From a virus: DNA of 49,741 nt. The position numbers and the translations under genes were made by a program. The DNA is taken from the IMG/VR virus record IMGVR_UViG_3300044640_001073, positions 1 to 49,741 of that record. One strand, given 5' to 3'. Of this stretch, positions 2,680 to 49,741 are shown one piece after another. Each line of letters begins with the position of its first letter. Positions within the stretch are counted from its first letter, which is position 1. Under the pieces are notes generated by a model. That model made no database searches. It saw nothing but the letters and a program-made list of their open reading frames with translations, and was not told where the DNA came from.

Positions 2680-4998
2680 ATGCAGATATTAGTAACCAAA
2701 AGAAATGGTAGTAAAGAGCCACTCACATTAGAAAAATGGCAAGCACAAGTAGCAAAAGTATGTAAGGGGATAGCAGATGTTAGCCCGAGTATGATAGAAA
2801 TAAAATCCCAACTACATTTTTATGATGGTATCACAACTAAACAAATTGATGGAATTACACTACGCGCCATCGTTGATTTAATTGATGTAGAGAATAATAG
2901 TGATGTTGGCCATACTAACTATCAATATGTAGCGGGCAAGCAACGTGTATCTATGTTGCGTAAAGATGTATATGGCTCATATGAAGTTCCGCACCTCTAT
3001 GAGATTGTTAAAAAGAATGTATCAACTGGATTATATACTAGTGAGCTATTAGAGTGGTATACTGAAGCCGATTGGGACAAGATGAATGATATGTTGGATC
3101 ATTCTAAAGACGAACAATACTCTTATGCCGCCATTGAACAACTCATTGAAAAATACTTAGTAAAGAATAGAAGTACGAAAGAAATCTATGAAACTCCACA
3201 AATTAGATACATGGTTGCAGCCGCTACAGTTTTTCATAAAGAAGAACCTAATAATGCCCGTATGCGTTATATCAAAGAATATTATAACGCTGCCAGTGAT
3301 GGACTTTTTACTCTTGCTACTCCAGTCCTTGCTGGCCTTGGGACTCCTACTAAGCAGTTTAGCAGTTGCGTCCTTATTCGCAGCGATGACGATCTTGATA
3401 GTATCTTCGCTAGTGGCGAAATGATGGCCAAGTATGCCAGCAAACGTGCTGGCATTGGCTTAGAGATTGGTAGACTACGACCACTAGGCAGTCCTATACG
3501 TGGCGGAGAGATTATGCACACCGGCATGATACCGTTCTTAAAGAAATGGTTCGGTGATTTAAGAAGTTGCAGTCAAGGAGGTATTCGTAATGCAAGTGCT
3601 ACAGTATTTTATCCCATTTGGCATCATCAGTTTGATGATCTTATCGTACTTAAAAACAATCAAGGAACCGAAGAAACCCGAGTCCGTCATATGGATTATG
3701 GGGTTGTGCTTAGTGCTTTCTTCTGGAGACGATTCAAAAACAAAGAAAACATAACATTCTTTGATCCTAACGAAGTTCCTGATCTATATGAAGCATTCTA
3801 TTCTAACACTGAAAAGTTTGAAGAACTGTACGTCAAATACGAAAAACAAAAAGATTTACGTAAAAAAACAATGTCAGCCGAAGAAGTATTCAAGTCAGGC
3901 ATATTAAAAGAACGAACCGATACGGGTCGTATATATCTAGTATTCATCGATAACGTGATGAAACAAGGACCGTTTGACCCAGAATATCATACAATATACC
4001 AGAGTAACTTATGCTGTGAAATACTTTTACCTACTAAATCCTTTAAACGTTTGGATGACAGCGATGGTCGTATCGCTCTTTGCACATTGGGCAGTATCAA
4101 TTGGGGTTCGTTCCGTAACCCAGAAGACATGCGCCGTGCTTGTCGCATATTGCATCGTAGCCTCAATAACATTCTTGACTATCAAGACTTTCTTTCCATC
4201 CAGTCTAAACTATCAAACGATGAAATCAGACCGCTCGGAATCGGAATCACAAATCTTGCCTACTGGCACGCCAAGCGAAATTTCAAGTACGGAGAAAAAG
4301 ATTCCTTGGCTGAAGTCAAGACGTGGATGGAACATCAAGCCTACTACCTAACAGAAGCATCAGTTGAATTGGCCAAAGAACGCGGAAAGTGCGAAGGCAG
4401 CGATAAAACACGATATGGTCAAGGTGTATTCCCTTGGGAACTACGTGCTAACGGTGCCAACGAATTAACAAACTTTGCTCCCGAACTAGACTGGGAAACA
4501 TTACGCACACAAATGAAAGAACATGGAGTCCGTAATGCTACACAAATGGCTGTAGCTCCTGTAGAATCAAGCAGTGTAGTAATTAATTCTACAAATGGTA
4601 TTGAAATGCCAATGAGTTTGATATCAGTTAAAGAAAGCAAAGCAGGAAGTTTTGTACAAGTCGTTCCTGAATATCATAAGTTGAAAAACAAATATCAAAT
4701 GATGTGGGATCAAAAAGACTGTGATGGTTACTTAAAGACAGCGGCAGTGATTGCAGCCTATGTGGATCAAAGTATCAGTACTAACACATTCTATAACCCT
4801 GCACATTTTGCGGATCGTAAAGTTCCAACTACATTGATTGCTAAGAACTTGATGCAAGCACACTATTGGGGACTAAAGACATTCTACTATAGCTTGATTA
4901 ATAAAGCGGGTAGTAAGAGCCAAGATGAAACCGTATTAGATTTGCCAAGTGGCTTTAACGATATGGACGAAGAAGATTGCGAAGCGTGTAAGCTATAA
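2680..4998 (+). CDS. nrdA: Ribonucleoside-diphosphate reductase alpha subunit, class Ia
   Basis: Reduces ribonucleoside diphosphates to deoxy forms for phage DNA synthesis, using a radical delivered by NrdB. At 772 aa it is full length. An N-terminal ATP-cone fills about residues 1-95 (QILVTKRNGSKEPLTLEKWQ). The catalytic cysteines are visible: C230 in SSCVLIRSD, the radical cysteine in NLCCEI (about C445) and C468 in IALCTLGSINWG. The C-terminus ends DCEACKL, the CxxC that shuttles electrons from a glutaredoxin, and one is encoded at 7621. It is the first gene of nrdA - SGNH - nrdB - oxygenase - grx. Identity is secure. Confidence 0.97.
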   Translation: MQILVTKRNGSKEPLTLEKWQAQVAKVCKGIADVSPSMIEIKSQLHFYDGITTKQIDGITLRAIVDLIDVENNSDVGHTNYQYVAGKQRVSMLRKDVYGSYEVPHLYEIVKKNVSTGLYTSELLEWYTEADWDKMNDMLDHSKDEQYSYAAIEQLIEKYLVKNRSTKEIYETPQIRYMVAAATVFHKEEPNNARMRYIKEYYNAASDGLFTLATPVLAGLGTPTKQFSSCVLIRSDDDLDSIFASGEMMAKYASKRAGIGLEIGRLRPLGSPIRGGEIMHTGMIPFLKKWFGDLRSCSQGGIRNASATVFYPIWHHQFDDLIVLKNNQGTEETRVRHMDYGVVLSAFFWRRFKNKENITFFDPNEVPDLYEAFYSNTEKFEELYVKYEKQKDLRKKTMSAEEVFKSGILKERTDTGRIYLVFIDNVMKQGPFDPEYHTIYQSNLCCEILLPTKSFKRLDDSDGRIALCTLGSINWGSFRNPEDMRRACRILHRSLNNILDYQDFLSIQSKLSNDEIRPLGIGITNLAYWHAKRNFKYGEKDSLAEVKTWMEHQAYYLTEASVELAKERGKCEGSDKTRYGQGVFPWELRANGANELTNFAPELDWETLRTQMKEHGVRNATQMAVAPVESSSVVINSTNGIEMPMSLISVKESKAGSFVQVVPEYHKLKNKYQMMWDQKDCDGYLKTAAVIAAYVDQSISTNTFYNPAHFADRKVPTTLIAKNLMQAHYWGLKTFYYSLINKAGSKSQDETVLDLPSGFNDMDEEDCEACKL

Positions 4999-36538: not shown

Positions 36539-36577
36539 GATTGTTCAACGTATGGTACAAAATATCAAACTAAATTG

Positions 36578-36606
36578 TTGACAACAATTCGAAAGGCATA
36601 TATACT
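36578..36606 (+). promoter_or_regulatory. Sigma70-type promoter P1
   Basis: TTGACA (36578-36583), 17 bp spacer, TATACT (36601-36606). First of three tandem promoters entering the tRNA region. Confidence 0.75.
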
Positions 36607-36665
36607 ACACACTTGCATCGAGAAATCGTTGCATTGAAGTTTGGGCAAGATGATAGAAAAAGTTG

Positions 36666-36694
36666 TTGACAACTATTCCAATCTCTGCTATACT
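36666..36694 (+). promoter_or_regulatory. Sigma70-type promoter P2
   Basis: TTGACA (36666-36671), 17 bp, TATACT (36689-36694). It is followed by CATGAATTGAGAAA, a block also found after P3 and, slightly changed, after the 42418 promoter. Confidence 0.8.
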
Positions 36695-36764
36695 TCAGTC
36701 ATGAATTGAGAAATCGATTCAGGAAATAATTTTTGAATTTTGGGCAGATAGATGAAAAAAAGTG

Positions 36765-36793
36765 TTGACACTATTTCGTTTCTCTGCTATAAT
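36765..36793 (+). promoter_or_regulatory. Sigma70-type promoter P3 (consensus)
   Basis: TTGACA (36765-36770), 17 bp, TATAAT (36788-36793): full consensus. Followed by CATGAATTGAGAAA. The spacers of P2 and P3 share TCTCTGC just before the -10 box, so they are duplicates. Confidence 0.85.
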
Positions 36794-36871
36794 TCATACA
36801 TGAATTGAGAAAAGGCACATAAAAACGCCTTAAAAAGACAATTTTTTTAACCAGGACTAAATAACTTTACT

Positions 36872-37294: not shown

Positions 37295-37476
37295 TAAGCA
37301 ACGTGAATAGGCAACGAGAGCCGGAATACAGCGTTAAATGTATCGAATGGGCGGACAGTAGGATGAAATCTGTGGCGATAACACAGAGACTAAAATCACT
37401 GGGTAGGGTATCAACCCTACCATGTCGTGTAGCAATACACGGCATTCTAAAACATACTACATGCACAATTGGGTAG
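37291..37476 (+). CDS. Doubtful ORF, 61 aa, running into RNA hairpins
   Basis: Starts MISNVNRQREPEYSVKC with AAGG 6 nt upstream and ATGA coupling to the preceding ORF. From 37402 onward the same DNA forms perfect hairpins (GGTAGGG/CCCTACC; CGTGTA-GCAA-TACACG; the long hairpin at 37443), so the C-terminal third is unlikely to be selected as protein. Confidence 0.25.
   Translation: MISNVNRQREPEYSVKCIEWADSRMKSVAITQRLKSLGRVSTLPCRVAIHGILKHTTCTIG
37402..37441 (+). ncRNA. Two perfect hairpins ahead of long hairpin H0
   Basis: GGTAGGG-TATCAA-CCCTACC (37402-37421), then CGTGTA-GCAA-TACACG (37426-37441) with a GNRA-type tetraloop. They sit immediately before long hairpin H0, suggesting one folded RNA of about 135 nt. 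Confidence 0.5.
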
Positions 37477-37535
37477 ACATGGTAGTCACTGAGCGAAAGT
37501 TTAGCAATGACGCTTTGGTAGTATGTTTTAGAATG
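37443..37535 (+). ncRNA. Long-hairpin RNA H0
   Basis: CATTCTAAAACATACTAC (37443-37460) pairs perfectly over 18 bp with GTAGTATGTTTTAGAATG (37518-37535) around a 57 nt loop. The loop shares blocks with that of H4b (42598): ATGCAC.ATT, GGGTAGACATGGT and CTTTGGTAGTATG. It lies 61 nt before the first tRNA. No known RNA family recognised. Confidence 0.6.
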
Positions 37536-37596
37536 CTTACTACAGATGAACAGTACATATCCCTCTGACGGATATGCTGTAGTGACAGTTTTTTAT

Positions 37597-38187: not shown

Positions 38188-38192
38188 GATTT

Positions 38193-38248
38193 AGGATGCT
38201 AACAGCAAAGTTAAAAACTTTTCTTTTGGTGAAAACAAAATGCATCCT
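38193..38248 (+). ncRNA. Covarying small stem-loop, copy A
   Basis: AGGATGC ... GCATCCT with conserved internal blocks TAACAGCAAA and GAAAACAAAA. Copies at 39337 and 48707. It is followed by TTTTATTTT and tRNA-Glu begins 10 nt later. Confidence 0.6.
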
Positions 38249-38258
38249 GTTTTATTTT

Positions 38259-38642: not shown

Positions 38643-38720
38643 GGGGGTATAGTGTTAACGGTTTAGCACAGCGGACTTTTAATCCGCCAGGTCAGGGTTC
38701 GAATCCCTGTGCCCCTACCA
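38643..38720 (+). tRNA. tRNA-Lys(UUU)
   Basis: Acceptor GGGGGTA/TGCCCCT (G1-U72), A73, CCA. Stem GCGGA/TCCGC, loop CTTTTAA. Its CCA end is also the first bases of long hairpin H1. Confidence 0.92.
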
Positions 38721-38801
38721 TATCAAAACACATTACCTATTGACAGCGGCGTACCCGTAGAGTTAATAGGCGTCTTGCAAGCTAGTGTGTTTTGATATGG
38801 T
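38717..38801 (+). ncRNA. Long-hairpin RNA H1
   Basis: ACCATATCAAAACACATTA pairs with TAGTGTGTTTTGATATGGT (38783-38801). The loop has an inner CCTATT/AATAGG stem. The 5' arm includes the ACCA of tRNA-Lys(UUU). Confidence 0.6.
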
Positions 38802-38869
38802 AGTTTAACTCCGTGGTTAACTCCACCAGACCGACGCCGCTTCGTGCGGGTTGAAGTAAGGAGCTACCA
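38797..38869 (+). ncRNA. Branched RNA structure between H1 and H2
   Basis: GGTAG...CTACC and CTCC...GGAG close a region with hairpins GTGG-TTAACT-CCAC and CCGC-TTCGT-GCGG. It shares its end bases with both H1 and H2, so alternative folds are possible. Confidence 0.4.
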
Positions 38870-38959
38870 TATATGAACACATTCACAGATCCGCCCGAGT
38901 AGTAAGGGAGACAGCGACTAACCGTTGAAGGACTGTTTAAGAGTGTGTTCCTATATGGT
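38866..38959 (+). ncRNA. Long-hairpin RNA H2
   Basis: ACCATATATGAACACATTC pairs with GAGTGTGTTCCTATATGGT over 17 of 19 positions plus one G-U. Loop of about 56 nt (CCGCCCGAGTAG... AAGGACTG). Confidence 0.55.
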
Positions 38960-38974
38960 ATCAATAAATACTTG

Positions 38975-39331: not shown

Positions 39332-39336
39332 GTTTT

Positions 39337-39396
39337 AGGATGCTAACAGCAAATTTATACACTCAACTTTTAATTGAAAACGTAAAAATGCATCCT
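39337..39396 (+). ncRNA. Covarying small stem-loop, copy B
   Basis: AGGATGC ... GCATCCT with TAACAGCAAA and GAAAACGTAAAAA blocks, followed by TTTTATTA. tRNA-His starts 10 nt downstream, the same distance as copy A to tRNA-Glu. Confidence 0.6.
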
Positions 39397-39406
39397 GTTT
39401 TATTAT

Positions 39407-42038: not shown

Positions 42039-42057
42039 AAATTATTGTCAGTTTTAT

Positions 42058-42133
42058 TCCTCAATAGCACAGCGGTAGTTGCGTCTGACTGTTAATCAGA
42101 ATGTCGGTGGTTCGATCCCATCTTGAGGAGCCA
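42058..42133 (+). tRNA. tRNA-Asn(GUU) 2
   Basis: Acceptor TCCTCAA/TTGAGGA, G73, CCA. Stem TCTGA/TCAGA, loop CTGTTAA. Canonical copy. Confidence 0.93.
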
Positions 42134-42155
42134 ATCAAATCGTTATTGTCAAAAG

Positions 42156-42184
42156 TTGACAATAATTCACAAATCCTCTATAAT
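42156..42184 (+). promoter_or_regulatory. Sigma70-type promoter P8 (consensus)
   Basis: TTGACA (42156-42161), 17 bp, TATAAT (42179-42184). Precedes tRNA-Arg(UCU) by 21 nt. Confidence 0.85.
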
Positions 42185-42205: not shown

Positions 42206-42280
42206 CTGGCGTTCGTTCAACGGATAGGACATCATTCTTCTAAAGTGATTATAGGGGTTCGATTCCCTTACGCCGGACCA
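42206..42280 (+). tRNA. tRNA-Arg(UCU)
   Basis: Acceptor CTGGCGT/ACGCCGG, A73, CCA. Stem TCATT/AGTGA, loop CTTCTAA. Its ACCA end starts the arm of hairpin H3. Confidence 0.9.
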
Positions 42281-42388
42281 AATTAAAACACATTACTCAC
42301 AGGACAGCCAAATCTGTCTGTAACTTCTAGTTGTAACCAAGCGTGAGAACTTGGGAAGTGTGATTCTCATAGTGTGTTTTAATTTGGT
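42277..42388 (+). ncRNA. Long-hairpin RNA H3
   Basis: ACCAAATTAAAACACATTA pairs with TAGTGTGTTTTAATTTGGT (one G-U). Inner CTCAC/GTGAG stem holds a GACAG/CTGTC hairpin. Followed by TGTTGTA-GAAA-TACAACA, a GNRA hairpin (42391-42408). Confidence 0.6.
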
Positions 42389-42417
42389 TCTGTTGTAGAA
42401 ATACAACAAGATAAAAT

Positions 42418-42446
42418 TTGACAATAAATGGATATGGTGTTACAAT
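42418..42446 (+). promoter_or_regulatory. Sigma70-type promoter P9
   Basis: TTGACA (42418-42423), 17 bp, TACAAT (42441-42446), followed by CATGAGTTGAGAAAG as after P2/P3. It drives the cluster of long hairpins H4a-H4d. Confidence 0.8.
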
Positions 42447-42485
42447 CATAGCATGAGTTGAGAAAGTCATCGCACTTCTTAACAA

Positions 42486-42503
42486 CGATCTTTAAAAATT
42501 TAT
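42486..42503 (+). promoter_or_regulatory. boxA-like antitermination leader
   Basis: CGATCTTTAAAAATTTAT, about 35 nt after the predicted start of P9. It resembles boxA of bacterial rRNA leaders (TGTTCTTTAAAAATTT type in betaproteobacteria). Better matches are at 43762 and 45212. Confidence 0.45.
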
Positions 42504-42504
42504 T

Positions 42505-42604
42505 GAATATGATGTCCTCGCATAGACAACACAAAGCACGATAATGTTGCTAAGTGATAACAGTCCGTAATCTTGTGAAAGAAAACGTAGCGAGGAGTCA
42601 TATA
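42505..42604 (+). ncRNA. Long-hairpin RNA H4a
   Basis: AATATGATGTCCTCGC pairs with GCGAGGAGTCATATA, 7 bp of GC-rich helix extended by ATGA/TCAT. About 70 nt loop. Its 3' arm shares TCATATA with H4b, so the two stems are mutually exclusive at the ends. Confidence 0.5.
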
Positions 42605-42707
42605 AAAACATACTTCATGCACCATTCGAAAGATGTAAGTGGGTAGACATGGTGTTCGCTGAGTTGAAAGATTCAGAAAGATACTTTGGTAGTATGTTTT
42701 TATATGA
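42598..42707 (+). ncRNA. Long-hairpin RNA H4b
   Basis: TCATATAAAAACATACT (42598-42614) is perfectly complementary to AGTATGTTTTTATATGA (42691-42707), 17 bp. The loop matches that of H0 in several blocks (ATGCACCATT, GGGTAGACATGGT, CTTTGGTAGTATG). Confidence 0.65.
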
Positions 42708-42711
42708 TTAA

Positions 42712-42823
42712 TCATATAAAAACGCATATTAGTTTGAAAGTCCAGCTAAGTTGAGCGTCCCCTGTAAAACGGGGAAAGAGCTAGAATTGCAGGTTAGTAT
42801 TGCTTTTATGTGTTTTTATATGA
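42712..42823 (+). ncRNA. Long-hairpin RNA H4c
   Basis: TCATATAAAAACGCATA pairs with TATGTGTTTTTATATGA (one G-U). Loop with hairpin CCCC-TGTAAAA-CGGGG. Separated from H4b by TTAA, so the junction itself is the palindrome TATATGATTAATCATATA. Confidence 0.6.
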
Positions 42824-42830
42824 TTTGTGG

Positions 42831-42898
42831 TCATATTGAAGTGTATACAGGCATGTCGCCTCGCTGGATCGGGGGTGTTTGTGTGTATTTCAATATGA
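42831..42898 (+). ncRNA. Long-hairpin RNA H4d
   Basis: TCATATTGAA pairs with TTCAATATGA, extended by GTGTATAC with GTGTGTAT across a bulge. Inner AGGC-ATGTC-GCCT hairpin. Shortest of the cluster; tRNA-Glu follows 4 nt later. Confidence 0.5.
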
Positions 42899-42902
42899 TT
42901 AT

Positions 42903-42977
42903 GGAGCCATCGTCTATCGGTTAGGACACAAGGTTTTCATCCTTGGAAGCGGGGTTCGATTCCCCGTGGCTCTTCCA
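42903..42977 (+). tRNA. tRNA-Glu(UUC) 2
   Basis: Acceptor GGAGCCA/TGGCTCT (G1-U72), U73, CCA. Stem CAAGG/CCTTG, loop TTTTCAT. Confidence 0.88.
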
Positions 42978-43761: not shown

Positions 43762-43778
43762 TGTTCTTTAAAAAGTAA
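43762..43778 (+). promoter_or_regulatory. boxA-like antitermination leader
   Basis: TGTTCTTTAAAAAGTAA, at the predicted 5' end of the P10 transcript. It matches the rRNA-leader boxA core TTCTTTAAAAA. Confidence 0.55.
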
Positions 43779-46569: not shown

Positions 46570-46853
46570 ATAAACCCGTCTTACTATTTTTACGTAACGA
46601 AATAGCGTCCCTGTAACGATAGAACAGGGGGTACACTAGGACCTGACCTCACAGTCCCCATTTCAGGGATACTGGAAACTGCCTAGGGTGAGGATTAACA
46701 GCCTTTCCAAAAGAAGAAAATGTTATGGACAGTGTAACAACTCAGAGATTGGGCTTATGTGGTGTAAGTAGCAGTCTCACTTTATAAGTGTGTTTCACAC
46801 CCAGCTGATAAGACTGGCTCTGTCGAGTGAAAAAGAAATACATTTATAAATTA
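46570..46853 (+). ncRNA. Structured stretch of 284 nt before initiator-like tRNA
   Basis: No plausible ORF. Nested pairings: CCCTGT/ACAGGG, CCTCAC/GTGAGG enclosing CAGT-CCC...GGG-CTG, and GGTGT...ACACC enclosing CACTT-TAT-AAGTG. The order suggests a single folded RNA. It is not tmRNA or RNase P RNA by their known core sequences. Confidence 0.45.
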
Positions 46854-48249: not shown

Positions 48250-48776
48250 TTGAAAGATTAAAAGGTTAGGTACAGCAATCCATACTTTATTGGAACTGTT
48301 AGACACTGTGGTGAATCATTGGAGCAAAGCAGGTAAAACTGTGTAGCGTTGAAGGTGTTCATTGAAGCAAGACTAACAAGCTCAGAGTGATGGCCTGAGT
48401 TTAATAAAAGCAGTCAACAACTAACCTGTTTGTATTCTAGGATGATTACAGCAACTTAAACATAAAATCTGAACTAATTGCTATAGAAGATGGTCGCAGG
48501 ACACAGTAGAAATACTGTTCTAGGAAACTAGACATTGAAGGAATAGACGACACATTGGAAAGACTTTGTATGTTGCTAGTAGCAGACACAATTACTAGAT
48601 AGTCAACATGAATTGTTGATAGGGTCTACGAAACTGAACCGATATACAGGGGATGAGGTAGACCAGAAAATAAACTTAACCGTTTCACTCATCCTGCTAG
48701 AGACATAGAATGTTAACAGCAAATTTAAATTTCAACCAATATCTGAAAACAAAACACATTCTGAGAGGTAAATAAA
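48250..48776 (+). ncRNA. Long structured leader / candidate Y-like RNA upstream of Ro-like gene
   Basis: 527 nt with no ORF. AGGTTAG (48263) pairs with CTAACCT (48421), enclosing GTTAGAC/GACTAAC and a CTCAG/CTGAG hairpin: a branched domain of about 165 nt. Further hairpins include ACAGTA-GAAA-TACTGT, CTAG-GAAA-CTAG, and GGTCTAC/GTAGACC, with GGATGAG/CTCATCC as an alternative. It may hold one or more small RNAs bound by the downstream protein, or be a long regulatory leader. Confidence 0.5.
48707..48762 (+). ncRNA. Covarying small stem-loop, copy C
   Basis: AGAATGT ... ACATTCT with TAACAGCAAA and GAAAACAAAA blocks. Relative to copies A and B both changed stem positions are compensated. It ends 14 nt before the Ro-like ATG and would hold or flank its ribosome binding site (GAGAGG). 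Confidence 0.62.
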
Positions 48777-49741
48777 ATGAACGCATTTGTAAACGCAATC
48801 GCAAATCAAGAAGCCCGTACTACAAACGGTATGAAGGCTCGTAAGTCAACCGCTAACTCAGTGGTTGATCTATTCTACAACATCGGCGCAAGCCGTGGTA
48901 AGAACATTATCCCAGCATTCACTGCGGCTTATGTGCAAGACAAGGACCTCGCTTTGCGTGTGGCTTTGTGGGCACGTGATGCACGTGGTGGTGCAGGTGA
49001 ACGTCAACTGTTCCGTGATATCTTGTCATACTTGGAAAAGCATGACCCAGAAGCGGCAGCACGTTTGCTAGTTAAGATTCCTGAAGTAGGTCGTTTCGAT
49101 GACTTGTTTGTCTTTAAGGACAAGGATCTTAAGGCTAAGGCATATTCTTTGTTAGGTGACAACCTTCGTGCAAAGAACGGCTTGGCAGCTAAGTGGACTC
49201 CTCGTAAGGGAGAAGTAGCACGTGAAATCCGTGAATTCTTCGGTATGAGTCCTAAGCAATATCGTAAGCAACTTGTGTCAATGACTAAGGTTGTTGAAAC
49301 ACAAATGTGTGCTAACGATTGGGACAACATCAACTATTCGCATGTGCCTTCACAGGCATCACGAATCTACAAGAAGGCGTTCAACCGTCATTCTACTACA
49401 TTCGCTGAATACGTTGCAAAGTTGGTGAGTGGTGACAAGACAGTGAAGGTCAATGCTTCGGCAGTGTTCCCTCATGAAGTCTTGAAGGGTTTAATCTCTG
49501 CGTACGGCCGTTCTACTTTGGGTAAGACCGAATTGGATCACGTAACCGCACAATGGGATGCATTGCCTAACTACATGAACGATGCAAACATTCTACCATT
49601 GGTAGACGTATCTGGTTCTATGACTTGCCCAGCAGGTGGAACTGGTTCAGTAACATGTTTGGACGTTTCTGTTTCGCTTGGTTTGTACCTAGCTGACAAG
49701 AACAAGGGTGCGTTCAAGGACACATTCTTGACTTTCAGTGG
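48777..49741 (+). CDS. Ro60/TROVE-like (DUF2828-like) RNA-binding protein with vWA domain (3' partial)
   Basis: 321 aa visible; the frame is open at the window end. The N-terminal part is an all-helical repeat region: AFTAAYVQDKDLALRVALWARDARGGAGER and LLVKIPEVGRFDDLFVF (shown in parts) are typical of TROVE/DUF2828 proteins. A vWA domain begins with LVDVSGSMTC near residues 274-283, the metal-binding DxSxS motif. Ro60-type rings bind Y RNAs and misfolded or tRNA-like RNAs. G/C-richer and codon-biased compared with its surroundings, suggesting high expression. GAGAGG upstream of the ATG. Confidence 0.85.
   Translation, partial: MNAFVNAIANQEARTTNGMKARKSTANSVVDLFYNIGASRGKNIIPAFTAAYVQDKDLALRVALWARDARGGAGERQLFRDILSYLEKHDPEAAARLLVKIPEVGRFDDLFVFKDKDLKAKAYSLLGDNLRAKNGLAAKWTPRKGEVAREIREFFGMSPKQYRKQLVSMTKVVETQMCANDWDNINYSHVPSQASRIYKKAFNRHSTTFAEYVAKLVSGDKTVKVNASAVFPHEVLKGLISAYGRSTLGKTELDHVTAQWDALPNYMNDANILPLVDVSGSMTCPAGGTGSVTCLDVSVSLGLYLADKNKGAFKDTFLTFS

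Follow-up and report, generated by a model that had tools for sequence, protein, structure and literature searches.

GOLLD and ROOL are phage non-coding RNAs found near tRNA islands, and their function is not known; they are 659 to more than 800 nt long and have one conserved, cage-forming fold, with no handle carrying swapped payloads (PMC12286853). RNA anti-CRISPRs (Racrs) provide a precedent for small phage RNAs directed against host defence; they are solitary CRISPR-repeat mimics, which probably sets them apart from the units considered here (PMC10651486). For Listeria phage CKA15, it has been proposed that RNAs found in abundance 5′ of an Rsr-like gene are Y RNAs (PMC12282133). The bacterial YrlA–Rsr/Ro60 system features an end-paired stem and a variable, sometimes tRNA-like, module. 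RNAs rnaC and rnaD (species 1 and 2) of phage T4 are small, stable RNAs with no assigned function, encoded in a tRNA cluster directly after a tRNA, and rnaC ends in a T-arm-like hairpin. In position they resemble the units described below; however, their folds differ, and neither a constant closing handle nor payload exchange is seen in them. Lacking the handle, rnaC and rnaD can be ruled out as homologues. To our knowledge, as far as the open-access literature in PubMed Central extends, none of these precedents (T4 rnaC/rnaD, GOLLD, ROOL, YrlA, Racrs) has both a constant handle and payloads that can be exchanged.

The DNA analysed here, referred to as the window, is a virus record of 49,741 bases. 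According to ARAGORN, it contains 36 tRNA genes between 37.7 and 48.2 kb, every one on the + strand. A stretch of this array, H4, contains four hairpins, H4a–H4d, which we interpret with moderate confidence as small-RNA cassettes of a phage tRNA array, having a constant handle, a swapped payload and a role against host defence.

The H4 region and its surroundings

The handle is a constant closing helix of about 17 bp, with the RNA sequence 5′ CCAUAU-nn-AAACACAUU / AGUGUGUUU-n-nAUAUGG 3′. At the DNA level, the consensus of a whole handle unit is CCATAT-nn-AAACACATT [payload] AGTGTGTTT-n-nATATGG. The payload inside the handle is structured and 28–105 nt long, a typical whole cassette being 70–115 nt. 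The features of the H4 region are as follows:

42418–42446, + strand: promoter TTGACA–17 nt–TACAAT, then the shared start region TGAGTTGAGAAA; the same block is present in relatives L016 (twice) and L004
42487–42499, + strand: boxA-like antitermination signal GATCTTTAAAAAT in the leader; also at window positions 43763 and 45213, and repeated in L016
42507–42603, + strand: H4a, a structured RNA, but of a different type, with a GC stem at 42515–42521/42590–42596; its outer arm shares positions with the H4b 5′ arm
42598–42709, + strand: H4b, handle unit; arms 42598–42614/42691–42707; payload 42615–42690
42710–42825, + strand: H4c, handle unit; arms 42710–42728/42807–42825; payload 42729–42806
42828–42901, + strand: H4d, a diverged hairpin resembling a handle unit, separated from tRNA-Glu by 1 nt
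42903–42977, + strand: tRNA-Glu(UUC), the gene that follows H4, apparently in one transcript with it

An initial annotation had placed four long hairpins at 42505–42898. Their stems were found, and the fold of 42480–42905 (−131.9 kcal/mol, z = −6.7) was reached by none of 100 shuffles. The H4b stem is 17 bp long and 100% paired and that of H4c is 19 bp and 95% paired, while the H4d stem is formed by 42831–42849 and 42880–42898; folded singly, these hairpins have z values against shuffles of −4.6, −6.2 and −6.3. The weakest of the four is H4a (z = −2.5), composed of a 7-bp G+C stem and six A+T-rich pairs (42507–42512 with 42598–42603). Because these outer pairs use the first bases of the H4b 5′ arm, only one of the two hairpins, H4a or H4b, can be complete at a time. 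As the annotation had stated, the hairpins enclose no tRNA (ARAGORN and Rfam, with the same result for the units of the whole window), and the sole ORF of at least 60 aa in the region is antisense and mechanical. No Rfam family reaches the gathering threshold in the H4 region. H4b and H4c belong to the handle-unit family; H4d and H4a do so less clearly.

The palindromic junction from which the annotation derived an exchange of partners between hairpins does exist, at 42696–42723 between H4b and H4c, and a swap is possible, but the partner-swapped fold of this pair is 7.7 kcal/mol worse than the local one (−65.7 versus −73.4 kcal/mol). Both the junction and the potential for exchange arise because all units carry similar handles, and adjacent units that overlap or abut recur in other loci. 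Given this origin and the cost of the swap, a designed switch is not needed as an explanation.

The composition of the region varies among relatives. H4b is absent in the close relatives L004 and L016, where the end of H4a runs straight into H4c; a clean gain or loss of H4b is accounted for by the shared TCATATAAAAAC (12-bp repeats). Its payload is 98–100% identical over 61–64 nt in L082, L083, L084 and L088, where the outer handle differs. H4c has homologues in L016 and L004, with the inner hairpin replaced in the latter, and a different unit occupies the place of H4d in both. L004, L016 and L092 retain H4a, and its stem has undergone the compensatory change from TCCTCGC/GCGAGGA to TTCTCGC/GCGAGAA. 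A self-contained RNA of four hairpins is thus not supported: besides the loss of H4b and the replacement of H4d, no terminator was found between the H4 units and tRNA-Glu at 42903. The only terminator-like site, a weak one, lies inside H4d.

The 17-bp-spaced promoter and the boxA-like sequence of the initial annotation are present and conserved together. The promoter–leader–boxA block is found in two copies in L016, with 86–94% identity, and partially in L004; its repetition in L016 argues against a chance match. Counted alone, promoter-like sites are no more numerous in the H4 region than in shuffled sequence. The motif downstream of the 42418 promoter also occurs at window positions 36666 and 36765, and the start region TGAATTGAGAAA is common to this promoter and to three tandem promoter-like copies at 36546–36812. 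That RNA is the product, as the annotation held, is very likely, considering the covariation of handles and payloads and the conservation of units and of the promoter–leader–boxA block in other phages.

The window has two other structured or conserved stretches. A tRNA-Asn is located inside a 16-bp stem (42040–42167), the 3′ arm of which overlaps a consensus promoter at 42156, and a non-coding stretch of about 260 nt at 46573–46833, for which Rfam gives no match, is 77% conserved in L082, L083, L084 and L088.

Handle units in phage tRNA arrays

The hairpins noted at first are one stretch of a family whose extent had been under-read; the window contains five further units:

37441–37537, + strand: handle unit with the payload type of H4b
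38715–38803, + strand: handle unit, cluster 2; the 5′ arm begins in the TACCA 3′ end of the Rfam tRNA at 38643–38717
38865–38960, + strand: handle unit, cluster 5
42275–42390, + strand: handle unit with its core 5 nt past the CCA end of tRNA-Arg; homologue in L004
45316–45397, + strand: handle unit, cluster 9, filling the tRNA-Leu/tRNA-Ala gap exactly

The arms of the window units have the common sequence 5′ AAAACAYAYT ... ARTRTGTTTT 3′. Between the second and third of the units listed, a structured module at 38804–38863 is closed by their facing arms (GGTAG...CTACC); the same module is found in L141 and L190, again flanked by a unit on either side.

A gene for a DUF2828 (Ro60-like) protein starts at 48777, 0.6 kb past the last tRNA of the array, and runs off the record (48777–49741); it has relatives in 658 GenBank phages. 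An H-type-pseudoknot-like element, AGGATGCTAACAGC...GCATCCTGTTTTA, is repeated in the window at 38188–38256, 39334–39404 and 48700–48766. The last copy lies just 5′ of the DUF2828 gene, and 43 loci match it over at least 30 nt. Using the protein adjoining the window array, 80 relatives were found in IMG/VR, most of them with tRNA arrays, and 33 of 39 arrays found through the DUF2828 protein contain handle units. A scan of IMG/VR with the handle alone (AAACACATT N38–68 AGTGTGTTTC) identified at least 120 stretches. Among the 131 pattern matches listed, the nearest tRNA is on the same strand in 123 and on the opposite strand in none; the remaining eight, without a nearby tRNA, were set aside, and one type among them overlaps a permuted tmRNA in L098. 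In a control on 16 contigs, the reversed pattern gave no matches, versus 20 for the true handle pattern. Across 84,980 species of bacteria and archaea, the handle extended by four bases matched only once, in Xenorhabdus.

In total, 304 unique units were collected from 139 viral loci by pairing and similarity, all of them in the tRNA sense; since handle identity was among the criteria, its conservation in this set is partly built in. Arrays of about 20 tRNAs have about two units, and most tRNA junctions of such arrays contain none. No unit matched Rfam, either at gathering thresholds (window and ten relatives) or at relaxed ones (window array and five relatives), and the GOLLD model RF02032 has no match in the units of the window. 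A blastn search of the units against named phages found no relative; phage H50 was discarded as a candidate, its match being short and within a stretch without tRNAs. Judging by Rfam 15 and open-access papers, the handle units are apparently a large, widespread and undescribed RNA family of big bacteriophages.

A cultured example is Synechococcus phage BUCT-ZZ01 (ON615601), which infects S. elongatus PCC 7942 and has three handle units, all unannotated (L215:1240–1381, 4635–4729 and 4723–4866). One lies 5′ of tRNA-Ile, and two overlapping units occupy the position between tRNA-Lys(UUU) and tRNA-Met, the same slot as is used in metagenomic phages. The z values of their folds are −6.3, −3.8 and −3.7.

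Many units abut tRNAs with exact spacing. The core starts exactly 5 nt past the CCA end of a tRNA in 123 of the 304 units (about 40%); the gap from core to the next tRNA is exactly 6 nt in 51, meaning that the unit ends where the tRNA starts; and 39 are flush with a tRNA on both sides. With such spacing, the handle helix takes in CC from the upstream and GG from the downstream tRNA. More than half of the units abut no tRNA. Among the 127 abutting upstream tRNAs, 56 are tRNA-Lys, which makes up about 5% of all tRNAs; this bias may be due to shared ancestry of one site. In other tRNA-rich phages, some tRNAs are enclosed in extended stems (L216:5548–5644, L217:10273–10373, L215:1852–1951).

The handle helix covaries. 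In 60 distinct handles, 16 of the 17 pairs change on both sides, and none of 500 shuffles was as good; 96.4% of the handle cells are paired, versus 78.5% in shuffles and 32–57% when the arms are slid by 1–3 columns. The units had been selected for pairing at most handle positions, with the exception of the two outermost pairs; these nevertheless covary, being paired in 58 and 53 of the 60 handles, and their double changes number 19 and 17. In the tRNA sense, G–U pairs far exceed A–C, except at one position where A is often opposite C, and this excess shows the pairing to be of RNA rather than DNA.

Payload diversity and exchange

The 296 distinct payload loops fall into 183 clusters, and those with several members have inner stems with compensatory changes. 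A T-arm is present in 14 of the 183 payload types (0.4 expected in shuffles) and an anticodon-like arm in 21 (10 expected). The tRNA-like payloads are a minority; most payloads lack a T-arm and most resemble nothing known.

At the tRNA-Lys(UUU)/tRNA-Met site, the handles are 96% and the tRNAs 77% identical, while the 18 payloads have an identity of 0.52, against 0.51 when shuffled. In L154 and L104, the tRNAs are 96% and the handles 100% identical, and the payloads (identity 0.51) are unrelated. Payload types are found again at other sites and on other handles in other phages. The best explanation for the wholesale replacement of the payload at a fixed slot, with the handle and the flanking tRNAs kept, is selection by variable host factors.

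Some slots hold other elements. L058 and L051 have RNAs of 202 and 220 nt with a different closing stem (GAATGACAATT...TTGTCATCC) between tRNA-Lys and tRNA-Met, and a pseudoknot-like element of about 50 nt takes the place of the handle unit in the tRNA-Leu/tRNA-Ala spacer of L002, L016 and L093.

Possible roles of the units

The cassettes are probably transcribed along with the tRNAs; for H4, transcription would start at the 42418 promoter, and the leader would provide boxA-type antitermination. Units flush with tRNAs would be expected to be cut free by tRNA end-processing, with RNase P acting at the next tRNA and 3′ processing at the previous one, and this would leave a blunt, stable, stem-closed RNA. 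The handle would be the common part, serving processing and stability and providing recombination homology for the cassettes, perhaps also a protein site, while the payload would be the working part, facing variable host factors. The most likely targets are RNA- or tRNA-targeting defences, for which the payload RNAs would be decoys or inhibitors. The anticodon nuclease PrrC is known to be counteracted by phage tRNA-Lys, and retron-Eco7 by tRNA-Tyr of phage T5 (PMC11555353); together with tRNA-Lys being the commonest neighbour of the slot, this favours decoys or inhibitors with moderate confidence. More tentatively, the units may constitute a modular RNA armoury of large phages, with more than 180 payload types presented by the constant handle in fixed slots of tRNA arrays, each a decoy or inhibitor of one host defence and exchanged between phages by recombination at homologous handles and tRNAs.

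The exact abutment of units on tRNA ends, and the long stems that enclose tRNAs themselves in other phages, would also be consistent with processing or folding insulators, in which the handle aids tRNA end maturation or prevents misfolding of neighbours and the payload is neutral filler. This is unlikely, as the same payload types persist in different phages and show compensatory changes, over half of the units do not abut any tRNA and most tRNA junctions in unit-bearing arrays have no unit.

By anatomy, the nearest rival is a Y RNA, the handle being the binding stem of a Ro60/TROVE-type protein and the payload an effector module, as in bacterial YrlA. The Ro60-like gene beside the window array, the presence of units in most arrays found through its protein, the T-arms of some payloads and the analogous proposal for phage CKA15 agree with such a role. 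However, 14 of 16 contigs chosen by the handle (106–355 kb, possibly incomplete) have no Ro60-like protein, which weakens the idea; two have it, and none of the 16 matches Pfam TROVE. Relaxed Rfam searches gave no YrlA or Y_RNA match in the window array down to E = 3; in five relatives, the YrlA matches were all weak and fell on tRNA genes. The units, without an Rfam match and mostly without a Ro60-like protein on the 16 contigs, thus probably differ from YrlA, and a Y-RNA function appears quite improbable. Phage-encoded RNase III and RtcB, considered as handle partners, are absent from all 16 contigs.

The gain or loss of H4b between 12-bp repeats and the swapping of payloads could reflect selfish DNA cassettes, MITE- or integron-like, with the inverted ends as DNA recombination sites. 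This is very unlikely in view of the single orientation relative to tRNAs (123 to 0 among the pattern matches listed), the sense-strand excess of G–U over A–C at all but one position and the covariation of the handle helix; on casual inspection, neither a transposase gene nor a target-site duplication was apparent at the units. The same orientation and G–U bias speak against a mobile cassette of the attC or MITE type, with orientation-independent ends and no RNA pairing. Least of all can H4 be expected to be one four-hairpin RNA exchanging partners as a structural switch: the palindromic junction and the TCATATA arms held in common, the overlap of the H4a outer arm with the arm of the next unit in four phages and the overlapping tandem units of BUCT-ZZ01 are in line with it, but the composition is not conserved, the swapped fold is the worse one and exchangeability follows from the handles being identical.

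If the units are indeed anti-defence cassettes with a constant handle, a widespread class of phage RNA genes has been missed by standard annotation, having no Rfam family and being unannotated even in the cultured example. The role of phage tRNA arrays would then extend to that of a library of RNAs, interchangeable and with regulatory or anti-defence functions, and the combination of constant handle and swapped payload would be a signature for finding many functional RNAs together. The occurrence of units in BUCT-ZZ01, with the laboratory strain S. elongatus PCC 7942 as its host, makes the idea directly testable.

Larger structured RNAs also occur in these phages. GOLLD is found in the arrays of unit-bearing phages at L203:311–775 and at L165:10286–10556, the latter match being truncated and scoring under the gathering threshold. 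The permuted tmRNA of L098 (13913–14302; beta_tmRNA and tmRNA_permuted models) lies on a phage-classed contig with 24 tRNAs.
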